From NCBI GenBank assembly GCA_002699105.1, contig PABJ01000178.1, positions 1 to 38,098 of the forward strand: a stretch of 38,098 nucleotides of DNA, given 5' to 3'. This document shows, in pieces, positions 25,772 to 36,516 of this stretch (positions within the stretch are counted from its first letter, which is position 1; every line of letters starts with the position of its first letter). Origin of the DNA: Ectothiorhodospiraceae bacterium (GTDB lineage Bacteria; Bacteroidota; Ignavibacteria; SZUA-365; GCA-2699105). Both the position numbers and the translations under genes were made by a program. The notes under the pieces were generated by a model. It had not been told where the DNA came from, made no database searches, and worked only from the letters and a program-made list of their open reading frames with translations.

Positions 25772-26527
25772 CTAGATAGAAGTAGCCGCCGCCTCGTCAA
25801 GCCACCAGTCGATTGTACCATCGATCGGTTTGACGAGGGAAGAAGGGAGCACCGCCGATGGTTCTCCCTTCATTATTTTTCGTAGAGTCTCAGCTTTTGA
25901 ATCCCCCGTCACGATAAACGAAATCCTTCGAGCCCGGTTAATGAGCGGGAGCGTGAAAGTTATTCGCTGTTGACCGGAATCGGGGTGGATGGCAAGGGCG
26001 CAGAGTTTTTCCGATTCGCGTAGGGTTTGCGCTTCAGGGAATAGCGACGCGGTGTGTCCGTCCGTACCCATGCCGAGGAAAATCCAATCGAAGACAGGCA
26101 CTTCATCGCGATGTTTCTTCACGTGACTGCGGATTTCACGTTCGTACCTGCGAACCTCTGCTTCAGGAGTGAGCTCGCCGTACATCCGATGGATATTAAG
26201 CACCGGGACTTCGAGCTTTTGCAGCAATGCCTCATATGCCATACGGAAGTTGCTCTCCTCATGCACCGGTGGAACGCAGCGCTCATCGCCCCAAAAACAA
26301 TGCACGTACCTCCATATCCCTCGATCTTCCAGGGAGCCATTCGCCAACTCCTGATAAAGAAGCTTGGGTGTCGTCCCGCCGCTAAGAGCTAGAGAGAGCG
26401 TCTCCTGATTCCTAAGCTCCCCATGTACGTGCGAGTAGAAATCCGCTGCAAACGCTTCAACAAGTGCCTGCGGATCGCGAAAGACCTTGATGTGTTCTTC
26501 CCGGTTAGAGTTCACAGTATTCTCCAT
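25772..26527 (-). CDS. pgl: 6-phosphogluconolactonase
   Basis: LSLALSGGTTPKLLYQEL, FWGDERCVPPVHEESNFRMAYEALL, DWIFLGMGTDGHTASLFPEA. The ORF track start (26647) lies inside zwf; ATG at 26527 (MENTVNSNREEH) is more plausible. Confidence 0.93.
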   Translation of the reverse strand: MENTVNSNREEHIKVFRDPQALVEAFAADFYSHVHGELRNQETLSLALSGGTTPKLLYQELANGSLEDRGIWRYVHCFWGDERCVPPVHEESNFRMAYEALLQKLEVPVLNIHRMYGELTPEAEVRRYEREIRSHVKKHRDEVPVFDWIFLGMGTDGHTASLFPEAQTLRESEKLCALAIHPDSGQQRITFTLPLINRARRISFIVTGDSKAETLRKIMKGEPSAVLPSSLVKPIDGTIDWWLDEAAATSI

Positions 26528-28034
26528 CGCTGCTGAGATTCTCACAGGGATAGCGCCAGTCGAGGTCCGGCGATTCGAAAATGCTCTTTGCTTCTTTAGG
26601 TCCCCATGTACCTGCAGGATAGCCGTAGAGCTTCTGGTCGCCGTCATCTTTCCAGGCGTCCAGTATCGGTTCGACGAAACGCCAACATGCTTCTACAGCA
26701 TCGCTGCGTGCGTAGAGAGTTGCATCGCCGAGCATGCAGTCGAGCAGCAGGCGCTCGTATGCTGACGGGAGGGACCCCTCGGCGATATTGGCATACTTGA
26801 AGTCCATGCTCACCTGCTGGATCTGGAAACCGGCCCCCGGCACCTTCATCCCATACTTCAGCAGAATTCCCTCGTCCGGCTGTATGCGGATGACGAGTTG
26901 ATTGCACTTCACGTTTTCATTGCTATCGCGGGAAAAGATGTAATGCGGCGTCCGTTTGAAGTGTATCACCACTTCCGAGACGCGGGTGGGGAGATGTTTG
27001 CCTGTCCGTAAGTAGAACGGTACCCCACCCCAACGCCAGTTATCGATATGAAGCTTGAGTGCCACAAAGGTTTCTGTCCGGGATTCCGGATCGACTTTCT
27101 CTTCGTCCCGGTAGGCTTTCAGCGTGTTCCCATCCACAGTGGACTCGGTGTATTGGCCGCGAACAACATTCTTCGCCACCTTGTCCCCGGTGATGGGGCG
27201 GAGCGAGTGGAAGACCTTCACGGTCTCGGATCGTACGGAATCCGCGTCGAAGACTGCCGGCGGTTCCATCGCGATTGTGCCGGTCACCTGGAGGAGGTGG
27301 TTCTGCACCATGTCGCGCATAGCGCCCGAATGATCGTAGTACCCGCCGCGTTTCTCCACACCGACGCTCTCGGCAGAGGTGATCTCCACGCGGTCGATGT
27401 AGTTGCGGTTCCACAGAGGTTCGAAAATCCCGTTTGCAAAGCGCAGCGCCATGATGTTCTGCACCGTCTCCTTGCCCAGGTAGTGGTCGATCCTGTAGAT
27501 CTGGTCTTCCTGGAACGCATCCTGGAGCGTGGCGTTGAGCTCGAGCGCTGAATCCAAATCATGCCCGAACGGCTTTTCTACGATGAGCCGTTTCCAGCCG
27601 CGCGCTTCATTCTGCATATCGTGCGCAGCCAGATTCTTGGCTATGACAGGATACATTGCAGGCGGCACGGAGAGGTAGTAGATGATATTCCGCGGCATCG
27701 ACCTCTCGTCGCAGATTGAAGCGAGCCTGTTCTTAACTTTTGCGAATGCTTCCGTGTTCTTCGTGTCGATGCCGGTGTAGTACATCGCTTGGAGAAACGA
27801 CTGTGCTTCACCCTTGGATGCATCCTCGATATCGCCGAAATCTTGCAGCGACTGCTCCACGTGCCCGCGGAATTCCTCGTCTGAATATTCAGTGCGGCTG
27901 ACGCCCAGCACTGCAAAGCGTTCCGGCAGCAGCTTTTTATGGTGCAGAGTGAAGAGCGCGGGAATGAGCTTCCGTTTCGTCAAATCCCCTGAAGCCCCGA
28001 AGATGACGATGACACAGTCCTTGGGCTGTTCCAT
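26505..28034 (-). CDS. zwf: Glucose-6-phosphate 1-dehydrogenase
   Basis: VIFGASGDLTKRKLIPALFTL, IVEKPFGHDLDSA, YRIDHYLGKETVQNIMALRFANGIFEPLWNRNYID, PFYLRTGKHLPTRVSEV. Confidence 0.97.
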   Translation of the reverse strand: MEQPKDCVIVIFGASGDLTKRKLIPALFTLHHKKLLPERFAVLGVSRTEYSDEEFRGHVEQSLQDFGDIEDASKGEAQSFLQAMYYTGIDTKNTEAFAKVKNRLASICDERSMPRNIIYYLSVPPAMYPVIAKNLAAHDMQNEARGWKRLIVEKPFGHDLDSALELNATLQDAFQEDQIYRIDHYLGKETVQNIMALRFANGIFEPLWNRNYIDRVEITSAESVGVEKRGGYYDHSGAMRDMVQNHLLQVTGTIAMEPPAVFDADSVRSETVKVFHSLRPITGDKVAKNVVRGQYTESTVDGNTLKAYRDEEKVDPESRTETFVALKLHIDNWRWGGVPFYLRTGKHLPTRVSEVVIHFKRTPHYIFSRDSNENVKCNQLVIRIQPDEGILLKYGMKVPGAGFQIQQVSMDFKYANIAEGSLPSAYERLLLDCMLGDATLYARSDAVEACWRFVEPILDAWKDDGDQKLYGYPAGTWGPKEAKSIFESPDLDWRYPCENLSSDGEYCEL

Positions 28035-28036
28035 TG

Positions 28037-28939
28037 TTATTCGCCTTTCTTCTTAACCGCGTGGCCGCCGAACTGGTTGCGGAGTGCAGCGAGCATGCGA
28101 TACGCAAAGGAATTATCCTGGCGGGATTCGAAGCGCGCAAACAGGGCCTGTGTGATGACCGGCGCCGGTACGTCGAGATCGATTGCTGCCTGGATCGTCC
28201 AGCGGCCTTCGCCGCTATCGCTTACGTAGGGCTGGAGCGAAGCAAGCTTTGGATCGTCGGCGAGCGCGAGTTCGGCGAGTTCAAGCAGCCATGAGCGGAT
28301 AACACTTCCATACTGCCAGACGCTGCTCACAGCCTTCAGGTCGATATCGAATTTCGACTTCTCCATGATTTCGAAGCCTTCAGCATATGCCTGCATCATG
28401 CCGTATTCGATTCCGTTGTGGACCATTTTCACGAAATGACCGGCGCCGTTGGTTCCGCAGTACTGGTAGCCTTTCTCGGGAGCGAGGGTTTTAAGGATTG
28501 GTTCGACATGGGCGCAGGGTTCTTCGCTGCCGCCGTACATCAGGCAGTAGCCTTCGGTAAGTCCCCAAACGCCGCCGCTTGTCCCGCAGTCGATATAGTG
28601 AATGCCCTTCGCCTGGATGCGCTCGGCGCGAGCTTCAGTATCCTGCCAATTGGAGTTACCGCCGTCGATGATAATGTCGTTTTGATTGAGGAGGGGAAGG
28701 AGGGCATCGATGTTTTCATCAACCGGCGCGCCGGATGGGACCATAAGCCATACTATCTTTCGTTCCGGCAACTTGCCGACGAGGTCTTCAAGCGAGGTTG
28801 ATGCAACTGCTCCTTTTTCTGCGGCTTCATCGATCTTCGGCTGCGATCGATTGTAGACGACGACTTCATGCCCATCGCGGAGAAGTCTCTCCACCATATT
28901 GGCTCCCATTTTTCCGAGACCTACAAAACCGAGTTTCAT
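28037..28939 (-). CDS. gnd: 6-phosphogluconate dehydrogenase (decarboxylating), short form
   Basis: LGFVGLGKMGANMVERLLRDGHEVVVYNRS, DGGNSNWQDTEARAERIQAKGIHYIDCGTSGGVWGLTEGYCLMYGG, GAGHFVKMVHNGIEYGMMQAYAEGFEI. Confidence 0.95.
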   Translation of the reverse strand: MKLGFVGLGKMGANMVERLLRDGHEVVVYNRSQPKIDEAAEKGAVASTSLEDLVGKLPERKIVWLMVPSGAPVDENIDALLPLLNQNDIIIDGGNSNWQDTEARAERIQAKGIHYIDCGTSGGVWGLTEGYCLMYGGSEEPCAHVEPILKTLAPEKGYQYCGTNGAGHFVKMVHNGIEYGMMQAYAEGFEIMEKSKFDIDLKAVSSVWQYGSVIRSWLLELAELALADDPKLASLQPYVSDSGEGRWTIQAAIDLDVPAPVITQALFARFESRQDNSFAYRMLAALRNQFGGHAVKKKGE

Positions 28940-28989: not shown

Positions 28990-31044
28990 TTATGAACGCC
29001 GTTGCTCTGAGCGCTCTATGGTCCTTTTGGCGACGTCAACAATACCGTCGACGGTCAGGCCGAATTCCTTCAGCACATCCTTGACCGGCGCCGATGCCCC
29101 GAAATCGCGCAATCCGATAATGCTGCCGATGCCGCGGCGGCCGGTATAGCGGCGCCAGCCGAATGTCGAGCCGGCTTCGACAGAAACCCTCGCATCGACT
29201 TCCGGCGGAATGACGGAGTCCTTGTACTCGTCGTCCTGGTCTTCGTAGAGGGACCAGCAGGGCATGCTTACCACACGCGCTTTAATACCTTCGCTCAGAA
29301 GCCGTTCGTATGCTTTCAGACAGAGCTGCACCTCGGAGCCCGTAGCTATGAGAACCAGCTCCGGTGTTCCTTCGCAATCGGCAAGGACGTATGCGCCGCG
29401 AAGCGCATTATCCGCGGAGGCGTACTTCTCTCTATCGAACGTCGGTATGCCCTGCCGCGTCAGCACCAGCGCCACGGGTCGGTTACGAAGATTCAGGATG
29501 TGTTTCCACAGCACGCTGACTTCGTTCGCATCCGCGGGGCGGATGACTTCGACATTCGGGATTGCCCGCAGGGAAGCGAGATGTTCGATCGGTTGATGGG
29601 TGGGACCGTCTTCGCCAAGTCCGATGCTGTCGTGCGTGAAGATATATATGACGGGCTGATCCATCAGTGCGGATAGCCGAAGCGAAGGCCGCATGAAATC
29701 CGAGAACACGAGGAAGGTCGATACATACGGACGTAAACCGCTGAGGGCCATACCGTTGGCAATGGCACCCATCGCGTGCTCGCGCACACCAAAGTGTAGA
29801 TTCCGGTGCTTGTATTCGCCTTTCGCGAAACTGCCCTCATCTTCTATAAGTGTCTTTGTCGACGGTGCGAGATCGGCAGAGCCGCCGAGGAACCACGGAA
29901 TCTTCTCCGCAATTGCGTTCAGAACCTGGCTGTTCGACTTCCGGCTGGCAAGGCCCTTTTCGTCGGCCTCAAATTCCGGCAGACAGCAATCCCACTCGGT
30001 GGGCATTCTGCCGTCCCGGATCATGCGAATCTCTTCTGCTTCTTTCGGGAAGTCTCCTGTATACCGTTCGAAGAGTTCCTCCCATTCGCGTTCCTGATCC
30101 CGCCCGCGCTCCATGATCTTTTTCTGATACTCATAGATCTCGTTCGGCACATAGAATTCCTTATCCGGATCCCAGCCGTAGTATTCTTTGGTCGCCCGGA
30201 TTTCATCTTCGCCGAGCGGGGAGCCGTGCGCTCCCGCAGTATCCTGCTTGGAGGGGCTTCCGTATGCGATGTGAGAATCTACGATGATAAGCGTCGGCCT
30301 GTCGACCTCTTCCTGTGCGATCTGAAGCGCGCGCTTGAGGAACATGAAATCATTCGCATCCCCGACACGCAGCACGTTCCAATTGTACGCCATAAAGCGC
30401 GTGGCGACGTCCTCACTGAAGGCCAGATCGGTTTCGCCTTCGATCGTGATACGGTTGTTGTCGTAGATCCACACAAGATTGTCGAGGCCGAGATGCCCGG
30501 CAAGCGACGCCGCCTCGCTGCTGACCCCTTCCATCATGCAGCCGTCGCTGGCGATTGCATAGATATTGTAGTCGAAGATTTTGTATTCCGGGCGGTTGTA
30601 GTTTGCTGCGAGCCATTTTTCGGCAATCGCCATACCGACGCTTGTCGCGACGCCCTGGCCGAGTGGGCCGGTCGTCGCTTCGACGCCGGGAGTGAGGTTG
30701 TATTCCGGGTGGCCGGGGCACTTGCTGTGCAGTTGCCGGAACTGCTTAATATCCTCGAGCGAAATATCGTACCCGCAGATGTGCAGCAGACTGTACTGCA
30801 GCATGCAAGCGTGACCTGCGGAAAGGATAAACCTATCCCGGTTCATCCAGTCCGGGTTTTTCGGATTAAATTTCATGAACGAATCGAACAGTGTGTACCC
30901 TACCGGCGCAAGTGCCATGGGCGTTCCGGGATGCCCGGAGTCCGCTTTTTGAACCGCATCCATGGAGAGGGTGCGGATCGTGTTGGTGACCAGCATCGGA
31001 ATTTCCGTGCTGTCGGGCGCCCTGTCGATTTGCTCGTTACTCAT
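28990..31044 (-). CDS. tkt: Transketolase
   Basis: TIRTLSMDAVQKADSGHPGTPMALAPVGYTLF, GPLGQGVATSVGMAIAEKWL, IYDNNRITIEGETDLAFSEDV, THDSIGLGEDGPTHQPIEHLASLRAIP. Confidence 0.97.
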   Translation of the reverse strand: MSNEQIDRAPDSTEIPMLVTNTIRTLSMDAVQKADSGHPGTPMALAPVGYTLFDSFMKFNPKNPDWMNRDRFILSAGHACMLQYSLLHICGYDISLEDIKQFRQLHSKCPGHPEYNLTPGVEATTGPLGQGVATSVGMAIAEKWLAANYNRPEYKIFDYNIYAIASDGCMMEGVSSEAASLAGHLGLDNLVWIYDNNRITIEGETDLAFSEDVATRFMAYNWNVLRVGDANDFMFLKRALQIAQEEVDRPTLIIVDSHIAYGSPSKQDTAGAHGSPLGEDEIRATKEYYGWDPDKEFYVPNEIYEYQKKIMERGRDQEREWEELFERYTGDFPKEAEEIRMIRDGRMPTEWDCCLPEFEADEKGLASRKSNSQVLNAIAEKIPWFLGGSADLAPSTKTLIEDEGSFAKGEYKHRNLHFGVREHAMGAIANGMALSGLRPYVSTFLVFSDFMRPSLRLSALMDQPVIYIFTHDSIGLGEDGPTHQPIEHLASLRAIPNVEVIRPADANEVSVLWKHILNLRNRPVALVLTRQGIPTFDREKYASADNALRGAYVLADCEGTPELVLIATGSEVQLCLKAYERLLSEGIKARVVSMPCWSLYEDQDDEYKDSVIPPEVDARVSVEAGSTFGWRRYTGRRGIGSIIGLRDFGASAPVKDVLKEFGLTVDGIVDVAKRTIERSEQRRS

Positions 31045-31065: not shown

Positions 31066-31842
31066 TTACACGCTGTGATGGATTGCCAGAGCCGCGCCGA
31101 CGATCCCTGCATCGTTCTGCAACTCCGCCACGACAATGTCGGCGGCTGTGTTGAGCAGCGGGATGAACATCTGGCTCTCGGCCGAAACGCCGCCGCCGAT
31201 GATGAACACATCCGGCGAGCAGAGGCGCTCCAGCTTTGCAAAGTACACATTCAGGCGTTCCGCCCAAGCCTCCCACGATAGGCCTTCGCGCTCGCGTGCT
31301 ATGGTAGATGAACGCGATTCTGCAATTTCGCCGTTAATCTCGATGTGACCGAACTCCAGGTTTGGGACCAGCGTCCCGTCGATGAACATTGCGGTGCCGA
31401 TCCCCGTCCCCAGTGTGACCATCATTACCGCGTAGCCTTTCTTTTCCAGGTAGGCACGGCCCGCTCCGAATCGCATTTCAGCGACGCCTGCGGCGTCGGC
31501 ATCATTAATGACCGCGACGCCGTCGGGGGAGAAGGCCTTCATCTTTTCCATAATGTTCACGCCGACCCAATCGCCGTCGAGATTTGCAGCGGTAAGCACC
31601 TTCCCGTGTTTGATAACGCCGGGAAAACCGCAGCCGATCTTTCCGCTCCAATCGAAGTGCGCGATCATCTCCTCAATGACAGCAAAGATCGCCTTCGGGG
31701 TTGAGTCTTCCGGCGTGTGGATTTTATGCCGGGGTTTCAGCAGCTCGCCGGTTTTCATATCGACCGGGGCACCTTTTATACCGGTTCCGCCGATGTCAAT
31801 CCCAAGGATAGGCTCGCTGCCCGCATGCTCGTGCAGATTCAT
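31066..31842 (-). CDS. ppgK: ROK-family kinase, probable polyphosphate glucokinase
   Basis: [97 protein letters not shown]; pattern resembles PpgK rather than generic GlcK. Confidence 0.85.
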
Positions 31843-31871: not shown

Positions 31872-31891
31872 AGATGAGCTGACACTCATCT
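31872..31891. other. Small hairpin between the DUF547 gene and the ppgK operon
   Basis: AGATGAG-CTGACA-CTCATCT inverted repeat without a strong T tract; possible weak terminator. Confidence 0.35.
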
Positions 31892-31906: not shown

Positions 31907-32644
31907 CTACTGAGAATTCAAAGACCAGTCGTAGCGCAGGTAGTCGATGGAGGGCTTATTCTTCTTGATATACGCGGCATCGCTGTCGCTCATATACTTT
32001 TCCGCGACGGCACGGACGGAGCCGAACTTCTTCTCAAAATCGTCCGAGAACCATTTGAAGATCTCCGACAGCTTGAGCGTATTGGCAGCCTTATCGAGTT
32101 TGTTCTTCGAGGGGTCGCGAAGAAAAGTCCGGGCGTTCTCCTCGAGCTGCCTGTACACCGTTCCCGGCGTGTATGCCTTGCGGATGAGTTTCGGGCAGCT
32201 CTGAGCGGCACAGACAACGCCGAAATGTATCAGCGCGCCGCCGAGGGGAATAATGTGATCATATTCGAGCTTATCGAGCGTCATCTTTTCTCCGGCAATG
32301 GAGAACTTCTTCTTTTTGAAAAACCCGTCCACATCCATCGGCGAATCGAGAGGCATGTGATCGATGACGTTCTTAATGACGAGCGCATTATATGCATTGA
32401 TATAGAACGCCAGCATTTCGTTGTCTGAAAACTTCTTTGTGTCGGCCTTGCCGATAGCAGCCACGTACTCTTTGAACGATTCGCTTTTGGCGAATCCAGG
32501 GTAGTTTACCATCCCGTCGCGGTCGACATACCGCTTAAGGAGTCCGTCAAACGTGGAATGATCGAAGCCTTGCGAGAATGCAGATGCAGCGAAGGTAATT
32601 CCTATTATAATTAAGGCGGTGGTTACACGGTTGTTCATCATCAT
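31907..32644 (-). CDS. DUF547 domain-containing exported protein
   Basis: N-terminal signal-like segment; DUF547-like core (LAFYINAYNALVIKNVIDHMP..., IHFGVVCAAQSCPKLIRKAYTPGTVYRQLEENARTFL). Confidence 0.87.
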   Translation of the reverse strand: MMMNNRVTTALIIIGITFAASAFSQGFDHSTFDGLLKRYVDRDGMVNYPGFAKSESFKEYVAAIGKADTKKFSDNEMLAFYINAYNALVIKNVIDHMPLDSPMDVDGFFKKKKFSIAGEKMTLDKLEYDHIIPLGGALIHFGVVCAAQSCPKLIRKAYTPGTVYRQLEENARTFLRDPSKNKLDKAANTLKLSEIFKWFSDDFEKKFGSVRAVAEKYMSDSDAAYIKKNKPSIDYLRYDWSLNSQ

Positions 32645-34923
32645 GCAGCTTTTTTCTGATCGTTATTCTGAATCACGGGTAGTTCGAAGGAGAGCGTATC
32701 GACGGGGCAGACGGTGACGCAGATACCACATCCGATACATGAACTTGTACTGTTATCGAGCGTTTCCTGTTTCGTGGCGTATGCCATCACATCAATGCCC
32801 ACCTGGCAGTAGCGAGAGCATTCGTTGCACGAGATGCATTTCTCGTTCGAATAAATCGCGAACTTGCTGAGACCTACCTTGGTATAGCCATTTGAAATCC
32901 ACTGCATCATCTTGGCAAGCGGGCACCAGTACCGGCACCAAACTTTCCCGCCAAGGAAGGGATACAGCGTCACCGGCAGAATGCCGATTAGCCATATATC
33001 GACGAAGATGCGATAGATAGATATCGACTCCTTGGCTGTCCCTGCGAGCCCCATATAGATATCCTTTCCCAGCATCACAAGGGTCACAGCCACCGCGAGT
33101 ACAAGGATCGCGGTTCCCATCCATTCGAGTTTGATGGAGGTTCTTCCTTTGGGTGCAAGGTGCCTCCACCTGTCGCCGAACGTCTCTGCGAGCCCGCCGC
33201 AGCCGCATATCCAGGAGCAATAGCGCTTTCCGTGCCAGAGCACGAACGTGGGGATAATTACGAAGGAGAGCAACACGCCCCAGACGATCCACACCTGGTG
33301 TGGATTATAGAAAAACGTATAGAAGAACAGCGGCCATGCGTACACGATTCCATAGCTTCGCCACGACTGATCGGCGAACACCTGATCCTGCGATAGTCCG
33401 CCGAGCCACTGGAATTCCAGTGCCCATTGGAAAAGGAACTCGGGAATGATAAAGAAGAAGAGCCACTGAAAACCGATGAGGCTGATATACCGCCACACCT
33501 GGAATCGGTCTTTTCTATCGAGGCCCCAGCGTTTCAGAGCCTGCACGCCGAAGATTGTCATGAGCGCAGTGTAGAGCACTGTGTACCAAAAGCTCCATGG
33601 CCGGTCGGCAAAGGTCAGCGCATCGTAGCCCCAGTTCGTAAACGGCCAGAACTCCTGCCCCTCTCCGGCCTTGATTCCGTACACTGCATAGCATATCATA
33701 AACGATATGCCGAGCCATGCCCATTTGTCCCCATTTTTGCCGAGGACAATGAGTGCGGCGGCTCCGGCCACCACCGCAATGACGCCCGACCATGCCGAGA
33801 TTGTCAAAAATGCATCGGGAACGACCTCAGTCTGCCCGCCCGCAAACCACAGTCCGGTCATAGTGAAGAGGGTAAGGAGCAGGGAGCGGAGCAGGCTGCC
33901 GTTCCATTCGTTTTCAAGCTTCAATCCGAGCGACTTCAAAAACTTGGCGGGAAACTCAGCGCCAATCAACACGAAGGAGTGATCGGCCTTCACGGTTTGT
34001 TCCTCCTGGCTGCCGCCGGAATCGACGGAGAGGACGGCCTCTTTTCCATCGAATCGCTTCACGTCCGAGTTGAGAATCGGTGTTATACTCCCGTCTGCGA
34101 TAGCGCTATCGAGCGCTTGCTGGTTATCCTTAAATATTCGGCTGAACTCTCCGCGCCGGTAAGAGAGCGTGACCCGATTTTGTTCTGACAATGTCAGTGC
34201 AGCTTCCACCGCACTGTTTCCGCCTCCGACTACCAGAATATCCTCATCGGAATACTTCTTCGGGCTGTAGAGCATGTGGTACACGCATTCCTGCTCTTCG
34301 CCTTCCACACCAAGCTTTCGGGGATTGCCGCGCTGCCCTGTAGCGAGTATGACATAGGATGCCTTGTAGGTATCCCGTTCGGTCTCAACAGTAAACACCC
34401 GATCGTTGCGTTGGACAGAAACAACGCCTTCATTCGTGTGGATGTTCAAACCGTTTTCTTCAACGATCTGATTCCAGCGCTGGATGAGGGTTTCTTTCGT
34501 GGCGCCATCTAGCCAGAGCTTGCCTTTGGGAGGTGTTTCATCCGGCTCCGCATAGACCCATTTCCCTTCGGGGAAATTCTCGATCGTGTTCGCGATCTTT
34601 TCCTTCTCGAGCAGGAGGCAGGACATCTCCTTATCCTTCGCAGCCAATGCAGCGTTGAGACCCGCCGCTCCGGCCCCGATGATGATCACATCGTATGTAT
34701 CCTCGCCGGCTGCCTTTGGCTTTTTCAGAGCGGAGATATGCTCGATCACCTGGTAGCCCTGCTCCATCGCCAGTTTGATAACGGGTGCGCCCGCGAGATC
34801 GCCGACCACGAACAGTCCTTTGACGTTCGATTCGAGATTCTTATCGACCTCAGGCCGTTGGCTGGGACCGTTCGCACTTGCGAAAATCGTCTCTTCGAAC
34901 CAGTGTTGGATTTTCTTAAACAT
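32641..34923 (-). CDS. FAD/NAD(P)-binding reductase (apparently circularly permuted) fused to a polytopic NapH/NosR-like 4Fe-4S ferredoxin domain
   Basis: NVKGLFVVGDLAGAPVIKLAMEQGYQVIEHI (N-terminal), then YDVIIIGAGAAGLNAALAA, DILVVGGGNSAVEAALTL, several TM helices, CSWICGCGGLAE, WCRYWCPLAKMMQ, CISCNECSRYC and CIGCGICVTVCP. Confidence 0.9.
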   Translation of the reverse strand: MFKKIQHWFEETIFASANGPSQRPEVDKNLESNVKGLFVVGDLAGAPVIKLAMEQGYQVIEHISALKKPKAAGEDTYDVIIIGAGAAGLNAALAAKDKEMSCLLLEKEKIANTIENFPEGKWVYAEPDETPPKGKLWLDGATKETLIQRWNQIVEENGLNIHTNEGVVSVQRNDRVFTVETERDTYKASYVILATGQRGNPRKLGVEGEEQECVYHMLYSPKKYSDEDILVVGGGNSAVEAALTLSEQNRVTLSYRRGEFSRIFKDNQQALDSAIADGSITPILNSDVKRFDGKEAVLSVDSGGSQEEQTVKADHSFVLIGAEFPAKFLKSLGLKLENEWNGSLLRSLLLTLFTMTGLWFAGGQTEVVPDAFLTISAWSGVIAVVAGAAALIVLGKNGDKWAWLGISFMICYAVYGIKAGEGQEFWPFTNWGYDALTFADRPWSFWYTVLYTALMTIFGVQALKRWGLDRKDRFQVWRYISLIGFQWLFFFIIPEFLFQWALEFQWLGGLSQDQVFADQSWRSYGIVYAWPLFFYTFFYNPHQVWIVWGVLLSFVIIPTFVLWHGKRYCSWICGCGGLAETFGDRWRHLAPKGRTSIKLEWMGTAILVLAVAVTLVMLGKDIYMGLAGTAKESISIYRIFVDIWLIGILPVTLYPFLGGKVWCRYWCPLAKMMQWISNGYTKVGLSKFAIYSNEKCISCNECSRYCQVGIDVMAYATKQETLDNSTSSCIGCGICVTVCPVDTLSFELPVIQNNDQKKAA

Positions 34924-34958: not shown

Positions 34959-35645
34959 TTACGATGGATCATTTGATAGTCCGGCGCGTTGGACATCGGA
35001 ATCTGAATCCGGTTCGAGTTCGTTGCCGCATTTGGAGCAACGGTTTGCGGAAGGGTGATTCATGTTTCCGCAGCTACTGCACTGAATAGAACTGCTCGTG
35101 GTACGAACCTTCTGGAGATGCGGAGGCAGATCAACTTCCTCTTTGCGCTCTTTCATCGCGATGACCGCAAAGCCGATAACGTTTACTATGAGTCCTGCGA
35201 AGAACCACAGCACGGCCGGGTAGCCTTTCTTCACTGCTATGGTAGCCGAACCCGCCGCACAAAGCAGTGAGCAGGCGATGAGAACACCGAACCAGAACCA
35301 GCCCAACCCCATACCGCCGTTACCGGGCACTGCTTCTTCGCTGAAGAGGCCGCCCCTGGCCTGCATCGACGCGAAGTATTTGGAAGGATTGGCGAGGAAT
35401 GTTCCTATCTCAGCGCGGTGGACTGCGACGCGCCTGCCCTTGTAGAGAAATGCATAATCCTCCTCCGATACAGGACTTCCACACACGATGCACCGGTCGC
35501 TATCGCGCACCTCGAGCCTGGTAAGCTCTTCGAGAGTGAGCGCGGTATCGCTCTGGCCGTAACTTGGCGAAGAAGTGATAAGCGAGCTCACTGCGACGAT
35601 CGTCGCAAGCAGCAGCGATCTGCCTGATGTGGCGGAGATGAGCAT
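34959..35645 (-). CDS. Exported/membrane protein with periplasmic CxxC domain, two TM segments and C-terminal zinc ribbon
   Basis: Signal-like N-terminus; DRCIVCGSPVSEEDYAFLYKGRRVAVHRAEIGTFLANPSKYF (YHS/NosL-like appearance); TMs; CSSCGNMNHPSANRCSKCGNEL. Confidence 0.75.
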   Translation of the reverse strand: MLISATSGRSLLLATIVAVSSLITSSPSYGQSDTALTLEELTRLEVRDSDRCIVCGSPVSEEDYAFLYKGRRVAVHRAEIGTFLANPSKYFASMQARGGLFSEEAVPGNGGMGLGWFWFGVLIACSLLCAAGSATIAVKKGYPAVLWFFAGLIVNVIGFAVIAMKERKEEVDLPPHLQKVRTTSSSIQCSSCGNMNHPSANRCSKCGNELEPDSDSDVQRAGLSNDPS

Positions 35646-35688: not shown

Positions 35689-36516
35689 TTAATGGCTTAC
35701 AGAGAGGCCCGCTGTATATGCAAGGGCGGAAAGCGCATTCTGCACCAGCGTGCCCGATGCAGCACCGACCGATAGTGTAAACGATTCCGTCAAGGCATAC
35801 CCGACCTCCAGACCGTACGAAAGGTAGCGCTGGTTATTCGGGTAGAGGCCGGTCAGTTCACCCGGCTGAAAGCTGTTGTCGCCGTCGCGGAGCGGCTGAA
35901 TTCCTGCAACCTTTAGCATGACGATGACATCGTCGAGAGGGCGGTACCCGGCGTCGAGTCCATACCTGATCTCGTTTCCGTAGCTGCCACCGCGGATGTT
36001 GACCCCCATGGAGGCAGATATCCATCCCGGAATGGGGTACAGCGAGTAGCCATATTCCAAACCCGCGTATTCGCTCCACACACCGTACCCGGTTCGCAGG
36101 CCCGACTCCACTTTGTCATCACCGAGAGGTACGCCCAAAGCCAGCACACCCGCAAGAGCTGCACCGCTTCCTTGCCACAAGCCTATCCGTACACCGATAT
36201 CTCCATCGGAGATGCCGGTATTCTCGCCGGGCGTTTGGGAGGTGTTTTCCGTTTCGCTGAGCTTCAGTGAACGGTAGAAGGGCAAGTATGTGAACACAGT
36301 GATGTTATTCGTAAGGCCGTATTCGCCGTAGAAGAACAGTGTGTTGTCTTCCAGTGTGGCAACGGGGATCTTCATCGTTTCCGTGTAATACTGATCGCCC
36401 TTCACAATCTGGATACCGAGTTTGTAGTACCCGCTCCCTTCTTCCTGCGGCCAGCCCCCAGCCAGGACGGCGTGCTGAATGGAAAGGAGCGCAACAACAA
36501 ATAAAATTCGTTTCAT
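35689..36516 (-). CDS. Predicted outer-membrane beta-barrel protein
   Basis: Signal peptide (MKRILFVVALLSIQHAVLA); alternating aromatic/Gly beta-strand patterns (FFYGEYGLTNNITVFTYLPFY, YLSYGLEVGYALTESFTLSVGAASG). Confidence 0.72.
   Translation of the reverse strand: MKRILFVVALLSIQHAVLAGGWPQEEGSGYYKLGIQIVKGDQYYTETMKIPVATLEDNTLFFYGEYGLTNNITVFTYLPFYRSLKLSETENTSQTPGENTGISDGDIGVRIGLWQGSGAALAGVLALGVPLGDDKVESGLRTGYGVWSEYAGLEYGYSLYPIPGWISASMGVNIRGGSYGNEIRYGLDAGYRPLDDVIVMLKVAGIQPLRDGDNSFQPGELTGLYPNNQRYLSYGLEVGYALTESFTLSVGAASGTLVQNALSALAYTAGLSVSH

Follow-up and report, generated by a model that had tools for sequence, protein, structure and literature searches.

A widespread protein family joins an apparently circularly permuted YpdA-like flavodomain to a NapH/NosR-like membrane iron-sulphur module

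The locus described here lies in a window of 38,098 nucleotides (the whole stretch of DNA that was analysed), in which a single open reading frame with no internal stop codons encodes a protein of 760 aa. Its parts and its neighbours are as follows.

32641..34923, minus strand: whole gene, 760 aa, putative permuted YpdA-like flavodomain plus NapH/NosR-like membrane Fe-S module (intact ORF, Pfam and NCBIfam matches, alignment of 65 full-length proteins)
34726..34863, minus strand: residues 21-66, N-terminal segment RPEVDKNLESNVKGLFVVGDLAGAPVIKLAMEQGYQVIEHIS, candidate relocated C-terminal FAD-domain segment (YpdA profile match, hhalign, pLDDT)
33904..34698, minus strand: residues 76-340, FAD and NAD(P) Rossmann core (Pyr_redox_3 3.5e-47; YpdA 7a7b 3.4e-29; Foldseek)
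32953..33894, minus strand: residues 344-657, membrane region of approximately 8 helices (AlphaFold2 model helices, hydropathy)
33199..33219, minus strand: first Cys motif, C569-SWI-C573-G-C575, a CX3C without Pro (3 Cys invariant, n = 65)
32923..32937, minus strand: second Cys motif, C663-RYW-C667-P, CX3CP (2 Cys invariant, n = 65)
32686..32856, minus strand: residues 690-746, 2[4Fe-4S] ferredoxin domain (Fer4/Fer4_21 matches; eight Cys invariant)
34959..35645, minus strand: upstream partner, 228 aa, with signal peptide, CxxC domain, QxRGxLF motif, two TM helices and C-terminal zinc ribbon
31907..32644, minus strand: DUF547 protein, overlapping the fusion gene by 4 bases (Pfam DUF547 1.5e-22)
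31066..31842, minus strand: polyphosphate glucokinase (NF045942 over cut-off)
28990..31044, minus strand: transketolase (TIGR00232 over cut-off)
28037..28939, minus strand: 6-phosphogluconate dehydrogenase, short form (NF007161 and TIGR00872 over cut-off)
26505..28034, minus strand: glucose-6-phosphate dehydrogenase (TIGR00871 over cut-off)
25772..26647, minus strand: 6-phosphogluconolactonase (TIGR01198 over cut-off; start codon uncertain, ORF overlapping the glucose-6-phosphate dehydrogenase gene)

Downstream of the fusion gene, the genes for DUF547, glucokinase, transketolase, 6-phosphogluconate dehydrogenase, glucose-6-phosphate dehydrogenase and 6-phosphogluconolactonase follow in this order on the same strand, with gaps of 2-64 bases. 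A terminator-like site (31872-31891) is located between the DUF547 and glucokinase genes, and a promoter scan gave results at chance level.

Pfam searches with the 760-aa protein returned Pyr_redox_3 at residues 80-336 and Fer4 domains at about 690-743. The best NCBIfam matches were YpdA (TIGR04018, 169.5 bits against a curated cut-off of 339.9, residues 78-340 only) and NapH/MauN (TIGR02163, 58.8 bits against 213.05, residues 550-747, the best family for the membrane Fe-S half), both far under their cut-offs; thioredoxin reductase (TrxR; TIGR01292) reached 98.5 bits against 343.45. Similarly, the best solved-structure match was YpdA (Bdr) 7a7b, with residues 78-339 aligned on 5-267 of 328 and no counterpart of YpdA's last ~60 residues downstream of the core, and the top Foldseek matches of the flavodomain were also YpdA. 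The view put forward in the original prediction, that this domain is closer to YpdA than to TrxR, is upheld by both sequence and fold. Foldseek with the full-length model matched the flavodomain only, and a comparison of the membrane Fe-S half with the Protein Data Bank gave a match confined to the ferredoxin part. The motifs that the prediction had quoted are present, the first of them beginning at residue 24 and not 27, and the C-terminal end of the flavodomain indeed lacks a second GD motif: past the core, the chain runs into TM helices and Fe-S motifs. The protein resembles the bacillithiol disulfide reductase YpdA/Bdr (7a7b, 7a76; TIGR04018) in the fold and sequence of its FAD/NAD(P) core and in an NAD domain without the CxxC redox motif of TrxR, but its counterpart of the C-terminal FAD segment stands at the N-terminus, so that the colinear FAD-NAD-FAD order of YpdA is broken, and the flavodomain is joined to membrane Fe-S.

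Searching GTDB genomes with the alignment of the fusion proteins brought up 523 relatives, many of them probably matching by the Fe-S half only. We kept the best 80 of the 523, 71 of which were intact enough for alignment, and 65 full-length proteins entered the final alignment. The search for proteins with the same order, which had been suggested as a check, thus yielded at least 71 intact permuted fusions at 56-69% identity from about a dozen phyla (Calditrichota, Latescibacterota, Kapaibacteria, KSB1, Planctomycetota, Acidobacteriota, Ignavibacteriota, Actinomycetota, Verrucomicrobiota, Elusimicrobiota and others), and every relative that reaches the N-terminus has the segment ahead of the core. 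The permuted fusion is a widespread family and not a singleton. Three permuted subtypes were distinguished: the fusion of the window type; a divergent fusion seen in Bacteroidota and in Pseudoalteromonas, where its RefSeq name is merely "NAD(P)-binding domain-containing protein"; and a stand-alone form of ~445 aa in which an N-terminal TM helix and a 2[4Fe-4S] ferredoxin precede segment and core and which terminates 8-17 aa past the core. An artefact of assembly or a frameshift, fusing a truncated upstream flavoprotein to the gene, had been named as one circumstance that would undo the prediction. It is refuted by the repetition of the order in dozens of independent assemblies, including a complete Pseudoalteromonas replicon, and in the stand-alone relatives.

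Neither Pfam nor NCBIfam has a family that matches the N-terminal segment. Using a profile built from 29 ordinary YpdA proteins of the same phylum, we found that profile positions 1-264 match residues 77-339 and that positions 268-303 separately match residues 23-56, a short match that is weak in single sequences. In a de-permutation test, the N-terminus of each protein was placed behind its own core and the product rescored on the YpdA profile, with shuffled N-termini as controls. For P0001 the score rose from 157.4 bits for the core to 167.2, and every one of the 65 proteins gained (0.6-15.3 bits, on average +7.1), against a mean of +0.01 with shuffled N-termini. Profile-profile comparison of residues 1-75 with the C-termini of YpdA and TrxR had been proposed, and hhalign does pair the N-terminus of the fusion with the C-terminal end of YpdA at E 4e-5 (0.47 for a reversed control). 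Within the segment, G41, D42 and G45 are invariant among the 65 aligned proteins. AlphaFold2, run with 65 sequences, gave a model with mean pLDDT of 87 and pTM of 0.79 in which residues 21-70 stand at about 84-97 and confidence is low across the Fe-S half, ferredoxin domain included. Strand 37-39 of this model would have to pair with the core, since residues 1-75 hold no other strand of three or more residues. Four independent lines, namely the de-permutation gain, the profile-profile match, the order conserved in three subtypes from many phyla and the confidently modelled fold of the segment, support the predicted circular permutation of a YpdA-like flavodomain. A segment swap, in which a piece of another, GltD-like flavoprotein filled in for a lost C-terminus, appears improbable: the fusion segment also aligns with the C-termini of GltD (E 5e-4) and TrxR (E 1.3e-4), but all profiles tried matched YpdA best, clearly so for the segment of the stand-alone form (E 5.6e-9 against 1.7e-5 for GltD and 1.6e-4 for TrxR), and we rejected GltD and TrxR as its source on these weaker matches. 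A tree built from 130 cores places the permuted proteins on one side of a branch with 100/100 support that separates them from YpdA; adding TrxR lowers the support for the permuted branch to 78/54. A single origin of the permutation is favoured. Literature searches on permuted flavoproteins, NosR/NapH fusions and DUF547 clusters returned nothing relevant, and none of the literature searched described a permuted protein with the thioredoxin-reductase fold.

Conservation of the cysteines differs between the two halves. The Fe-S half has 13 Cys, eight of them in the ferredoxin domain, and none varies among the 65 proteins. The flavodomain contains only C102 and C213, both variable, and the position of C213 is mostly occupied by H, Q, R, K or N in relatives. 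The lone Cys213 had been read as standing where TrxR has its CxxC; given its lack of conservation it has no special standing, a redox-active role for it was dropped and thiol chemistry is therefore unlikely, as is bacillithiol disulfide reduction by a flavodomain that, unlike YpdA/Bdr, has no conserved Cys. On the nucleotide side, R256 is invariant (n = 65) and R262 is found in 64/65, in the region where Arg residues of TrxR bind the 2'-phosphate of NADPH. The membrane half shares with NapH/MauN, NosR and CcoG the TM helices, the CX3C(P) motifs and the C-terminal 2[4Fe-4S] domain with its eight invariant Cys and Fer4 matches. It differs from these membrane ferredoxins in having its own NAD(P)H flavodomain and in its motifs: only one is CX3CP (663-668), the other (569-575) being CX3CxC without Pro, so that the pair of CX3CP motifs of NapH is not found. 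The loops bearing the Cys motifs are rich in K and R and on that account probably cytoplasmic.

Two further types of flavoprotein resemble the window protein in part. GltD/NfnB/HdrA-type flavoproteins combine an FAD/NAD(P) domain with 4Fe-4S in one chain and split electrons to single carriers. GltD has its GD segment at the C-terminus. In the window protein, the Fe-S belongs to the membrane module. YumC/IruO, ferredoxin-NADP reductases of TrxR type, have the same fold and pass NADPH electrons to an Fe-S protein, but they are soluble and unpermuted with the ferredoxin separate. Ferredoxin-NADP reductases of this type were among the structure matches of the flavodomain.

Sugar-phosphate genes also flank 10/80 relatives (L042, L061, L066, L067, L068, L079, L083, L086, L110, L111), which fall into roughly half a dozen unrelated groups, some being close relatives, and 0/25 stand-alone loci; in L145 a glucose-6-phosphate dehydrogenase gene lies directly downstream of a divergent fusion. 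This link is a minority association and suggestive. The fusion gene adjoins oxidative pentose-phosphate genes, and for this reason we infer a preference for NADPH. A DUF547 gene is also found near several relatives. The upstream partner is more constant, a homologue lying immediately upstream in 60/74 loci with enough sequence, and neither Pfam nor NCBIfam covers the whole protein; the original prediction had overlooked it. Its CxxC domain is YHS/TRASH-like in some relatives (YHS match in 2/11 members, best E 5.5e-4). CcoG, which has two tetranuclear Fe-S clusters and lies in the membrane, is reported to be a cupric reductase with unknown physiological donor (PMC7558416). By analogy, one could picture an NADPH-driven enzyme that reduces metal ions, Cu(II) for instance, at the membrane or across it, served by a metal-binding partner. 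We regard this as rather unlikely, since the partner's Cys are gone in several relatives (e.g. L040, L041), its resemblance to NosL, which we had considered as an identity for it, is not significant (E 1.5), and CcoG is not among the listed family matches of the 760-aa protein, for which it may serve as a useful analogy and not as an identification.

The stand-alone permuted forms occur in a different setting. Cytochromes c with 10-58 CXXCH motifs lie no more than five genes away in 20/21 scored loci, some of them matching MtrC/MtrF-like domains. A number of loci (L149-L154, L162, L223-L237) show the stand-alone permuted flavoprotein with its ferredoxin amid giant multihaem cytochromes with up to 58 CXXCH, possibly representing extracellular electron transfer operons of Bacteroidota. 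The membrane Fe-S half is also found alone (~500 aa, L155-L161); in 7/7 loci read its neighbour is an NAD(P)H flavoprotein of another kind that is not permuted, and these loci often also contain NAD kinase, DUF547 or glycosyltransferases.

We interpret the window protein, with a probability of roughly two in three, as an NAD(P)H dehydrogenase of the membrane that probably uses NADPH; a conduit from NAD(P)H to membrane Fe-S within one polypeptide is the best functional reading of its sequence. NADPH generated by the adjoining oxidative pentose-phosphate enzymes would reduce FAD in the permuted YpdA-fold flavodomain, from which single electrons would pass through two cytoplasmic [4Fe-4S] clusters and two membrane-proximal CX3C sites to the membrane and on to quinone or a periplasmic acceptor, with the conserved upstream partner involved. 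A narrower version, which we hold to be possible and less likely, makes the quinone pool the acceptor of a non-pumping NADPH:quinone reductase that clears excess NADPH, with the partner as an assembly or regulatory factor. The probably cytoplasmic position of all Cys motifs, the annotation of NapH as a quinol dehydrogenase subunit (NCBIfam) and the NADPH-making enzymes encoded close by agree with it, but the maintenance upstream of a partner with an exported-looking domain and the company of multihaem cytochromes c around the stand-alone forms fit it poorly.

The permutation itself would have opened the chain within an FAD-domain loop, giving new ends to which Fe-S modules attach, the new C-terminus bearing membrane Fe-S in the fusion and the new N-terminus a ferredoxin in the stand-alone relatives. 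It is tempting to propose, if only tentatively, that one ancient permutation of a YpdA-like protein gave rise to a modular NADPH intake unit, wired in many phyla to different membrane conduits, either a membrane Fe-S module of NapH type that has its own partner protein or a ferredoxin with giant multihaem cytochromes. The fusion looks like an unrecognised route for NADPH electrons into or across the membrane, and the permutation suggests a way to open a flavoenzyme at one loop and add Fe-S modules. The fusion may also bring an NAD(P)H donor of its own to a class of membrane ferredoxins whose physiological donors are unclear, as is the case for CcoG (PMC7558416). The divergent relative in cultured Pseudoalteromonas, represented by WP_007378779.1 of Pseudoalteromonas sp. 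Bsw20308, makes the question open to experiment.

Two further observations concern the surroundings of these genes. Positions 35689-36516 of the window encode a 275-aa protein, found in the window only, which has no family match and is possibly an outer-membrane barrel. Divergent fusion genes of three loci (L146, L148, L241) lie within glycosyltransferase clusters, and L146 also contains what is presumably an ArsS-type radical SAM gene.
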